Shown piece by piece: positions 9,657 through 11,690 of a stretch of DNA of 64,000 bases; within the stretch, counting starts at the first letter, position 1, and every line of letters starts with the position of its first letter. The position numbers were made by a program, and so were the translations under genes. Under the pieces are notes generated by a model. The model worked only from the letters and a program-made list of their open reading frames with translations, did not search any database and was not told the origin of the DNA. This stretch comes from Klebsiella variicola (lineage in GTDB: Bacteria; Pseudomonadota; Gammaproteobacteria; Enterobacterales; Enterobacteriaceae): the NCBI RefSeq assembly GCF_000828055.2, contig NZ_CP010523.2, positions 5,084,001 to 5,148,000 on the forward strand. Reading direction: 5' to 3'.

Positions 9657-9689
9657 GGCGACATCCCGGGTGGCAGCGTTCCGCCTTCG

Positions 9690-10145
9690 TGCCGGATGGC
9701 GGCTACGCCTTATCCGGCCTACAAACTAAGCACAGCGCAAGCCGGGGAATTTCCCGGGTCGCGGCGTTCCGCCTTACCCGGGCTACCGGACAGTGCAAAC
9801 AGTAGCCCGGCTAAGCGCAGCCGAAAGCCGGGGAGTTCCCCGGGTCGCGGCGTTCCGCCTTACCCGGGCTACCGGACGGTGCAAACAGTAGCCCGGCTAA
9901 GCACAGCGCAAGCCGGGGAATTTCCCGGGTCGCGGCGTTCCGCCTTACCCGGGCTACCGGACTAGCGCCGCCGGGCATGGCCACAGCCAGGGAGCCGCCT
10001 GTATGCCGGGTGGCGGCTACGCCTTATCCGGCCTACAAACTAAGCGGAATTTCCCGGGTCGCGGCGTTCCGCCTTACCCGGGCTACCGGGCAGTGCAAAC
10101 AGTAGCCCGGCTAAGCGCAGCGCAAGCCGGGGAGTTTCCCGAATA
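9690..10145. repeat. REP/BIME cluster downstream of cbpM
   Basis: This gene-free stretch is a mosaic of palindromic units. One type reads GCCGGATGGCGGCTACGCCT (first copy near 9694, second near 10004). The other type pairs a CCCGGGTCGCGGCGTTCCGC half with an AGTAGCCCGGCTAAGC half and recurs about four times between 9728 and 10140. Copies differ by a few bases. These are enterobacterial REP-like elements arranged as BIMEs between genes that converge (cbpM + and parR-like -). Open reading frames across it are repeat artefacts. Confidence 0.85.
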
Positions 10146-10165
10146 GCGCAAACCGGGAATAGCGC

Positions 10166-10537
10166 TTAATCCGGTAACGAACCGGCGAGATTACGCGCGG
10201 AGACGCTCTCGCTGACCGGCGCGGGTGGCTCCGGCGCCTTAGCTGGAGCCGCCGCTGGCGCGGATGCCGGGGCGGAAGAGGCCGGCTGGATCTCAAGGAA
10301 CGAAGCCAGCATCTTACGCAGCGTTTCCGGTTTAGTATCTTCCGCCAGCAGCGCCGCCAGCATCGACGGCAGGCGGCTATCGACTTCCCCTAACGCCAGC
10401 CCCGCCAGCAGCGCCGTACGCGACATATCGCCGCGGTCGCCACGGTGGTGGGCCTCAATTTTTGCGTCCGCGAAGCGCTCGCTGGCGCTGATATCCGGGC
10501 GCAGGTAAATCAGCACTTTTCTGCGATCCAGAGTCAT
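10166..10537 (-). CDS. ParR/StbB-like centromere-binding protein, partner of ParM-like ATPase
   Basis: A 123-residue protein starting MTLDRRKVLIYLRPD, a beta-strand-like segment followed by helices, as in ribbon-helix-helix ParR/StbB proteins of R1-type plasmids. Conserved-looking blocks are SRTALLAGLAL and a leucine-rich middle. The last 45 residues are an Ala/Pro-rich tail likely to be flexible; in R1 the ParR C-terminus contacts the ParM filament end. AAGGAG precedes the ATG by 6 bases. It lies 9 bases downstream of the ParM-like gene, the R1 parMR order. Identification is by pattern and context. Confidence 0.72.
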   Translation of the reverse strand: MTLDRRKVLIYLRPDISASERFADAKIEAHHRGDRGDMSRTALLAGLALGEVDSRLPSMLAALLAEDTKPETLRKMLASFLEIQPASSAPASAPAAAPAKAPEPPAPVSESVSARNLAGSLPD

Positions 10538-10546
10538 AGACGCTCC

Positions 10547-11503
10547 TTAACCAATAATTTTCAGACCACGCACCAGGGCAAACTGCGGCTCTTCAGCCAC
10601 CACGAAACGGTCCTCGCGCAGCCCCATACGTTCACGAATCGCATCGGCCACCAGCGGCGCGCCGCCACCAATCACGATGGCGTGCGAATAGCCTTTAAAG
10701 CTATCAATCGCCGTCAGGACGCGGGTGGTCAGACGTTCGATGCTGTTATTGATCACCTTCTTCACCTCAGAAACCGCATCCGGATCGTTGATGTTGTCGG
10801 TCAGGTATTCTTCGTCGTGGCGGTTGATGATTATCTGGTCAACGTTATAGCTGGAAGTGTCGGTATTCGCCCGGGCCAGCGCCAGCTTAACGGCATCGGT
10901 CACCAGCGACACGCCCAGCTTCGGATCGCCGTAAATGCGCGAAACCGAGGTCATCTGCCCGGCGACCATTGAAATATCCAGCGTGGTGCCGCCGAGGTCG
11001 ATAATCAGCACCGAATGCGACGGTTTCAGTTCATCGCACAGGCTGATCCCCGCAGGAATGGATTCCGGACGCACGGTAACTTTCGTGATATTGAACACCA
11101 CGCCTTTGTTCAGTTTAACGTCGCGCAGCAGGCTCTTTTTCTTGCGCTCAATATTGTCGAGGCGATATTGCGCATCTTCGTCGTAAAATTCGGTCAGCGG
11201 CAGGGTGACCACAATCTCGACATCCTGCGGCTCAAGACCGCTGGTCAGCAGCGCGTGATGGACAGCGATGGAGTTCAACGGGCTATATTGCCAGTCAATG
11301 TTATTGGTGGGGAGCGCATCGGGAGTGATCAGGTCGAATGAGTACTTTTCATCATCCACGGTGTAGTTAAAAGGCTTCCCGGAACCGAAGGTGGCAGACC
11401 AGCCGCGTTTGAAACTGTTGGGGCTGATATGGGTGAAAGTTTCGCCATCTTGCTCCCACAGCATTTTGATATTGGTTGAACCATCATCGATAAAAATGCG
11501 CAT
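10547..11503 (-). CDS. ParM-like actin-family ATPase (plasmid-type DNA segregation) on the chromosome
   Basis: A 318-residue protein strongly resembling R1 plasmid ParM/StbA: the start MRIFIDDGSTNIK (phosphate 1 loop), HISPNSFKR, AVHHALLTSGL, PESIPAG, the second phosphate motif LIIDLGGTTLDIS, IYGDPKLGVSLVT, and the adenosine motif VIGGGAPLV. ParM polymerises with ATP into filaments that push ParR-bound DNA apart. It is full length (R1 ParM is about 320) and the nucleotide-binding motifs look intact. GGAG lies 7 bases before the ATG. Base composition is like the neighbours, suggesting long residence rather than a recent plasmid insertion. Whether it segregates anything here is unknown. Confidence 0.9.
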   Translation of the reverse strand: MRIFIDDGSTNIKMLWEQDGETFTHISPNSFKRGWSATFGSGKPFNYTVDDEKYSFDLITPDALPTNNIDWQYSPLNSIAVHHALLTSGLEPQDVEIVVTLPLTEFYDEDAQYRLDNIERKKKSLLRDVKLNKGVVFNITKVTVRPESIPAGISLCDELKPSHSVLIIDLGGTTLDISMVAGQMTSVSRIYGDPKLGVSLVTDAVKLALARANTDTSSYNVDQIIINRHDEEYLTDNINDPDAVSEVKKVINNSIERLTTRVLTAIDSFKGYSHAIVIGGGAPLVADAIRERMGLREDRFVVAEEPQFALVRGLKIIG

Positions 11504-11520
11504 CGCATTGCTCCATCACT

Positions 11521-11690
11521 GAGACAAATAAGAGAAAAATGTAAGACCCAAAAAGAGTAGCAAGAGTTAAAAAGCCGCGCAAGAGCACGAAAAAGAGACA
11601 ATTCCGAGTTTTATTTGAGAACAAATGGAGAAACGAACAGTTCAATGCGCCCTGAAAGAGAAATAAATGAGACAAAATAGAGAAATACAG
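11521..11690. repeat. Array of 11-bp-phased GAGA(A/C)A repeats: candidate parC-like centromere
   Basis: GAGA-type 11-mers begin at 11521 and 11532; at 11595, 11606 (GAGT), 11617 and 11628; and at 11658, 11669 and 11680. Spacing within each cluster is exactly 11 bp, with looser GAG copies at 11555, 11564 and 11583. Examples are GAGACAAATAA, GAGAAATAAAT and GAGACAAAATA. R1 parC likewise has 11-bp direct repeats in sets flanking the parMR promoter. The array sits immediately upstream of the ParM-like gene and is unusually purine-rich on the + strand. Confidence 0.65.
11554..11582 (-). promoter_or_regulatory. Candidate promoter of the parMR-like operon
   Basis: Read on the - strand, TTGCGC (11577-11582) and TACTCT (11554-11559) are separated by 17 bases. 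The site falls in the irregular interval between repeat sets, as the R1 promoter does, which would let the ParR-like protein autoregulate. The hexamers are imperfect. Confidence 0.35.

Follow-up and report, generated by a model that had tools for sequence, protein, structure and literature searches.

Between melB and cbpM on the chromosome of Klebsiella variicola lie the genes of a ParM-like ATPase and of its ParR-type partner, preceded by a phased array of CTC motifs that we regard as a putative centromere (Table 1). Judging from the sequences, we put the odds at about even (a probability of roughly 0.5) that this locus is a domesticated ParMRC system, whose donor was a phage-plasmid of D6 type or a similar island, inherited mainly vertically and probably working, with a region of the chromosome as its likely substrate. 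The anatomical part of this reading taken alone, namely that the three parts of such a system are present, is very probably correct.

Table 1. Features of the parMR locus (positions are those of the window).
Feature	Position	Strand	Description
parM	10547-11503	minus	actin-like ATPase, 318 aa; open ORF
parR	10166-10537	minus	adaptor/DNA-binding protein, 123 aa; open ORF; starts 9 bp after parM
parC-like putative centromere	11521-11682	minus	12 CTC cores that fall on a ~10.5-11-bp grid
5' leader of parM	11504-11520	minus	GGAG ribosome-binding site

Genomic setting and gene products

The window, i.e. the whole 64,000-nucleotide stretch that was analysed (G000:C1:5084001-5148000), belongs to a single contig of 5,521,203 bp with dnaA at base 397, which we take to be a closed chromosome. 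A sequence-only reading of the window had proposed a gene pair in R1 order in a chromosomal setting. Both proposals are borne out: the window lies in a 5.52-Mb single contig with dnaA and not in a plasmid, and the order array-parM-parR, as in R1, is found between two genes named melB and cbpM in annotated relatives of the window. ParM has a single match in its own genome. With the contig assumed to be circular, the locus is located ~426 kb from dnaA, and the corresponding distances are ~440, ~392 and ~396 kb in the related genomes G014, G002 and G001, respectively (the first two assumed to be circular); this position, ~0.4 Mb from oriC, is simply what conserved gene order would produce. The GC contents of parM and parR are 0.538 and 0.648, for 0.584 in the window, and the GC3 of parMR (0.67-0.71 versus 0.70-0.72 for cbpA and melB) is in keeping with the compositional likeness to the neighbouring genes noted in the first reading. 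The array is AT-rich, with a GC content of 0.376.

ParM matches the Pfam StbA_N (5.2e-65) and ParM C-terminal (5e-55) domains and, with at least 316 of its 318 residues covered in each case, the PDB entries 4a62, 1mwk, 4a61 and 5aey (E-values 7e-107 to 8e-106). The motifs DDGSTNIK (residue 6), DLGGTTLD (residue 169) and GGGA (residue 279), which we take to serve in nucleotide binding, are all present, confirming the view of this protein as a full-length ATPase with intact motifs. The same motifs are preserved in each of ten ParMs that we aligned, contrary to what an ATPase core mutated in most genomes would show.

The assignment of the downstream gene to the ParR/StbB-like proteins is substantiated by matches to PF10784 (Plasmid_stab_B, 1.5e-15) and to the StbB structure 2jd3 (2e-9). 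No NCBIfam model scored above its cut-off with ParM or ParR. The C-terminal segment of ParR, SARNLAGSLPD, is identical in the genomes of all six species carrying the locus (see below) and nearly so in D6 (SARNLADSLPD), with a variable Pro/Ala linker before it; from this conservation, it is likely to be the ParM-binding tail of ParR. An AlphaFold model of ParR built with seven sequences reaches a pLDDT of 52, too low to inform on a ribbon-helix-helix fold. With a motif-bearing ParM, an StbB-family ParR encoded downstream and phased repeats upstream, the locus has the sequence hallmarks of type II (ParMRC) partition systems.

The CTC array upstream of parM

An upstream array had been mentioned, though not described, in the sequence-only reading; we located it between the melB stop codon and the parM start codon, with CTC cores at positions -20, -31, -54, -63, -82, -94, -105, -116, -127, -157, -168 and -179 relative to the latter. 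The best period of the CTC phasing is 10.3-10.6 bp. None of 2000 dinucleotide shuffles attained the period power of the array in the window, in the locus of each of the five other species, in two K. pneumoniae records or in the D6-like plasmid L043, and 43 of 2000 did so for the Enterobacter hormaechei phage-plasmid L042; all these shuffle figures are descriptive, because the motif and the period range were picked after the sequence had been read.

For the six species genomes, we aligned the 200 bp that precede parM and defined core columns by the CTCs of the window. Invariant columns make up 34 of the 36 core positions versus 84 of the 164 others (Fisher p=2.6e-7). When the array is split in two, a division chosen after the alignment was seen, the upstream half has 17/18 invariant core columns versus 17/82 others (p=5e-9), and the gene-proximal half 17/18 versus 67/82 (p=0.16). 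Most columns are conserved in the latter half, where the contrast between cores and spacers is missing perhaps because the promoter and leader are conserved as well. Of the trinucleotides with three or more occurrences in this upstream half, conservation is 0.94 for CTC and 0.84 for TCT, and at most 0.5 for all others. We read the conservation of the cores as the footprint of putative protein-binding sites under selection, with spacers that drift.

Phage D6 harbours 10 CTC in the corresponding upstream stretch, and the 30 bp beside the parM start codon are similar in D6 and in the window (TGTCTCAG...GGAGC), GGAGC being common to these two and to the E. hormaechei phage-plasmid. In a set of 13 ParM loci, the 240 bp upstream of parM contain 9-13 CTC in the five of D6 type versus 0-4 in the eight others, i.e. 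none in the IncF-type locus L116 and 0 to 4 in the remaining seven. As D6-type loci are thus CTC-rich and other ParM loci CTC-poor, the DNA specificity of the array looks D6-type.

The array probably also contains the parM promoter. A promoter scan upstream of parM returned no sigma-70-type site, and a candidate spotted by eye, TTGCGC-17-TACTCT, is not relied on.

Searching the whole genome with a profile of the array yielded one match at E<=10, the array itself (E-value 1.1e-42; 150 of 179 candidates scored). When we looked for a second centromere with a pattern of four CTC spaced exactly 11 bp apart, we obtained three matches, including the known array, but as many with the reversed control, and a second centromere was rejected. 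One of the other matches, at 4905790, is intergenic, C-rich and G-poor (phasing P=0.031 versus single-base shuffles), and the remaining one is in a coding-like stretch. Of note, the 236 bp of L131:5700-5935 (G000 about 4905700-4905935) contain 13 G versus 110 C on one strand and lie between what look, by eye, like a tRNA and a carbonic anhydrase gene.

Distribution, selection and inheritance

We sampled Klebsiella and Raoultella with 20 genomes, one per species, including that of the window. ParM matches at E<=1e-30 were found in ten of them, with identities of 92-100% in six: the window genome, G013 (K. pneumoniae ATCC 13883), G014, G001, G002 and G016 (Raoultella sp. BIGb0138). In all six carriers, ParM has 318 aa and ParR 123 aa, and the two genes are located beside cbpM. 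The cbpM gene is present in 20/20 genomes; G006, with the order melA-melB-cbpM, has no parMR at this site but a gap of 224 bp. The locus had been called a conserved chromosomal copy, which holds in that the same site is occupied in several species but not at the scale of the genus, only 6 of whose 20 sampled species carry it. Because it is missing from the other 14, it is no essential segregation system.

The locus is also present in 3/3 K. pneumoniae records (ATCC 13883, CP125156.1 and NZ_CP129856.1), a count that says little on its frequency within the species. CP125156.1 (5.37 Mb) and NZ_CP129856.1 (550 kb, linear) both have the gene order phn-proP-melRAB-parMR-cbpMA-pga, with intact genes. 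These two records, the first of them circular, are filed as Klebsiella plasmids, yet they carry chromosome sequence here. The locus shares with the chromosomal ParMRs of PMC12270681 its presence on the chromosome and its conservation among relatives. As it is neither part of a plasmid window nor a remnant limited to one strain, and its ATPase core is not mutated, the interpretation of the sequence-only reading is supported.

Relative to the window, the dN/dS ratios of parM in the five other species are 0, 0.016, 0.025, 0.051 and 0.047, those of parR range from 0.026 to 0.084 and those of cbpA from 0.015 to 0.065. These values indicate that selection on both ParM and ParR is purifying. Synonymous divergence of parM resembles that of the genes around it: it is 0.21 in CP125156.1 versus 0.11-0.28 for the neighbouring genes (melB 0.20, cbpA 0.17, proP 0.15), 0.31 in G014 versus 0.16-0.32, and 0.96 in Raoultella BIGb0138 versus 0.86-1.11 for four neighbours. 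In G001, it is 0.39, with neighbours from 0.29 (melB) to 1.32 (pgaA); divergence is strongly unequal on either side of the locus there, which suggests that one flank has recombined in some lineage. The melB gene is reduced to a 35-residue match in G002 and was not found in Raoultella BIGb0138, and parMR is intact in both.

In a tree of cbpA and cbpM, the five Klebsiella carriers group together (0.997) and the Raoultella carrier branches elsewhere; in the ParM tree, the five Klebsiella copies also form a clade (99), which the Raoultella copy joins next (99). Taken together, the two trees point to an old gain followed by losses, or to an ancient transfer. The GC3 of ParM is 0.674 in the window versus 0.505 in D6 and 0.502 in L042, indicating that the chromosomal gene has been ameliorated. 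The parMR genes thus seem to be long resident on the Klebsiella chromosome and intact.

Kinship with D6-type phage-plasmids

Among 72,556 plasmid records, 188 harbour a ParM homologue at E<=1e-120. Two of these are pieces of Klebsiella chromosome (99.7% identity), and the 186 others, at 60-80% identity, include none from Klebsiella. Two close records, L042 and L043, were examined; both contain capsid and tail genes and are phage-plasmids. In phages, ParM identity reaches 78% in two D6 records and is below 60% in the other 14, with ~46% for the P88-like ones. In 5,426 Escherichia coli genomes, we found 1010 similar places, 1003 of them on plasmids and 7 on chromosomes. A maximum-likelihood tree of 35 ParM sequences groups the six chromosomal copies in a clade (99) that is joined by the E. 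hormaechei phage-plasmid (93), in a wider group that includes D6, Providencia and Yokenella. Other chromosomal ParMs of the family were discarded as close relatives: L126 is a P88-type prophage, and L118, L120, L121, L123 and L124 belong to a separate ParM clade (support 100).

Phage-plasmid D6 and its relatives (MF356679, 91 kb; E. coli and Salmonella plasmids of ~92 kb; E. hormaechei p60214CZ_1) have ParM proteins 78-79% identical to that of the window, an upstream array of CTC cores and the same gene order; in L042 and L043, ParR identity is about 51-54% (tblastn). They are extrachromosomal and possess capsid and tail genes, whereas the Klebsiella locus stands alone on the chromosome and has a higher GC3.

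The main rival to our reading arises from this kinship. The chromosomal centromere and ParMR might cause mis-partition and loss of D6-type phage-plasmids, or of islands with the same iteron specificity, in which case the locus would be a domesticated incompatibility or defence module. That the gene pair is nearest to phage-plasmid versions and has an array of their CTC-rich type argues for it, as do reports that the incompatibility of Clostridium perfringens plasmids is set by ParR/parC specificity (PMC9426499) and that the parC of R1 expresses incompatibility. The lack of Klebsiella among the 186 plasmid records would fit as well, but host range predicts the same absence: only 10 of 926 records with relatives of the D6 capsid are from Klebsiella, and since these relatives are rare there too, we did not count the absence as evidence of defence. 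At least 60% capsid identity is found in 136 of the 926 records, the rest, at ~43% and lower, being presumably mostly P1-like; the one of the 10 Klebsiella records that is among the matches listed has 43.5%. Moreover, a decoy would need no motor as conserved as this ParM, and we consider exclusion rather doubtful, if still the closest competitor.

A second chromosomal ParMR family linked to flagellar genes

Another clade of chromosomal ParMRs is found in Enterobacteriaceae, with ParM proteins of ~349 aa and, in those read, ParR proteins that end in KGIF. Its ParM is present in 19 of 392 genomes of the family (E<=1e-120). Nine of the 19 sites directly follow motB-like and NlpC/P60 genes, four directly follow a FliJ-like gene, four are beside caiD and two have no such neighbour within 1.5 kb (NlpC/P60 and FliJ identified by Pfam, motB-like and caiD by eye). 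In the loci read over 18 kb, those of the motB type (L120, L121, L123 and L127, from G027, G152, G162 and G194, respectively) close a flagellar cluster and those of the FliJ type (L124 and L125, from G224 and G297) are embedded in one; loci L134-L152 also belong to this second family. We take these clusters to be flag-2. The main texts of two flag-2 surveys (PMC6993521 and PMC7526173) contain neither ParM nor StbA nor 'partition'. No obvious iteron array was detected in the 120 bp upstream at six of these loci, and the family is possibly an actin-like system tied to flagella. The nearest relative of the flag-2-linked ParM in plasmid records (71%) is coded, together with a KGIF-ending ParR, by a 2.1-Mb replicon of Photobacterium sp. 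DA100 (L153:15001-16786), with no match to the tested flagellar proteins within 15 kb.

ParMRs within or beside flagellar clusters indicate that such pairs can take chromosomal roles. By the same token, the ParM filaments and the ParR of the melB-cbpM locus might have been recruited to a cytoskeletal or regulatory role other than segregation, with the array serving as a simple operator. We hold this to be unlikely, since the set of array, ParR and ParM is complete and 12 phased cores have been kept over 160 bp, beyond the expected need of an operator.

Mobile-element context

In Yokenella (G170; L104:4395-7328, L154, L155 and L156), D6-type ParMRs are found beside tyrosine integrase genes in three places, one of which is probably split over two contigs. 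These are integrative islands that carry a partition system, and hence the donor of the Klebsiella locus may have been such an island. The chromosome of Providencia rettgeri RB151 (L103) also has a D6-type ParMR (72%), with a Rep3 replication gene ~1.8 kb away, and is likely to harbour an integrated plasmid there.

The replication, integrase or phage genes that would mark an integrated plasmid, ICE or prophage were not found in L045, where 26 features are annotated over 25 kb around the locus, in a gene table that may be incomplete. The Yokenella-type integrase has no match in the stretches of the six species (L099 and L090-L094), and of ten P88 proteins, ParM alone matches L099. In G014 and CP125156.1, an insertion-sequence-like transposase gene, recognized by eye, is located between parR and cbpM; it is absent from the window. 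Because this gap measures 110-509 bp in the window and four other species, we take these genes as later insertions. Across relatives, the gap ranges from 110 bp to 2.2 kb. It harbours repeats with a spacing of ~85 bp (window 9657-10165; L091:6449-8220; L044:13338-15532), made of palindromic CTTACCCGGGCTAC / GTAGCCCGGCTAAG pieces.

That an integrated plasmid or island left the locus behind as a relic or selfish remnant, devoid of host function, is the least probable of the readings, for although the integrases next to the Yokenella relatives, the Rep3 gene of Providencia, the srpMRC system reported to work in SXT/R391 ICEs (PMC4489591) and the genes inserted in the parR-cbpM gap of two carriers would suit it, the lack of mobile-element genes in L045 and of the Yokenella integrase in the six stretches, the single site common to six species, the low dN/dS, the preserved array cores and the retention of parMR where melB decayed all disfavour it.

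Comparison with known systems

The Klebsiella locus shares with the ParMRC systems of R1 and pB171 a full-length ParM homologue, a PF10784 ParR and a centromere upstream, in the order parC-parM-parR. The IncF-type copy has a ParM with 53.9% identity (tblastn) and an upstream region devoid of CTC, and it probably has another DNA specificity. Chromosomal ParMRs are already on record in other bacteria (J Biol Chem 2025): those of Desulfitobacterium and Clostridium botulinum are described, two of which are reported to form filaments, and further ones are listed (PMC12270681). As presented there, cParCMRs are chromosomal and conserved across related species, with a proposed non-plasmid role; the Klebsiella locus differs from them by its R1-type ParM of phage-plasmid kinship. 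The words 'Klebsiella' and 'Enterobacter' occur 0 times in the main text of that article.

The srpMRC locus of SXT/R391 ICEs is reported to be an actin-type partition locus that works in the chromosome and stabilises DNA (PMC4489591). It is described as part of an excising ICE with an integrase, and none was found at the Klebsiella locus. Among the matches listed in our literature searches, no title or abstract opening has a Klebsiella chromosomal parMR as its subject, and the main text of a Klebsiella transposon screen (PMC11349299) mentions neither parM nor plasmid segregation nor stbA. The kind of system is thus already known in other bacteria, and the Klebsiella locus is, as far as sequences can tell, an unusually complete case for an active chromosomal centromere.

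Proposed mechanism and significance

In the reading that we favour, that of a domesticated ParMRC, an ancestor of Klebsiella and Raoultella would have captured the system, either from a phage-plasmid of D6 type or from an integrative island related to one, with mainly vertical inheritance thereafter. ParR would bind the phased CTC iterons upstream of parM to form a segrosome, which would also control the parM promoter by repressing it. The C-terminal tails of ParR would serve to nucleate filaments of ParM and to cap them; when such filaments link two sister copies, they would drive these apart. For R1, the centromere is reported to be split around the promoter, ParR to repress that promoter and its tails to bind ParM inside the segrosome (PMC5016525). 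It is by analogy with such systems that we infer, for Klebsiella, that ParR binds the array, that ParM forms filaments, that the operon regulates itself and that the chromosome is moved.

As the only detectable centromere is chromosomal, the natural substrate in a plasmid-free cell would be the chromosome itself. The region ~0.4 Mb from oriC is the most likely one, which the system may help to segregate or to position, in an accessory role. Enteric bacteria such as E. coli are said to use no ParABS (PMC12270681), a statement that is not specific to Klebsiella, and the separation of their origins has long been a question. Several Klebsiella species have, as part of their stable chromosome, a complete actin-type system whose putative centromere is visibly under selection, and as the locus is easy to delete and to image, it can be tested directly whether an actin spindle acts on a bacterial chromosome. 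If the exclusion of phage-plasmids should prove true, the locus would represent an incompatibility-based defence. We tentatively suggest, as a possibility that we rate below even odds, that in K. pneumoniae and its sister species a host-adopted actin centromere system may move or position an origin-proximal part of the chromosome.
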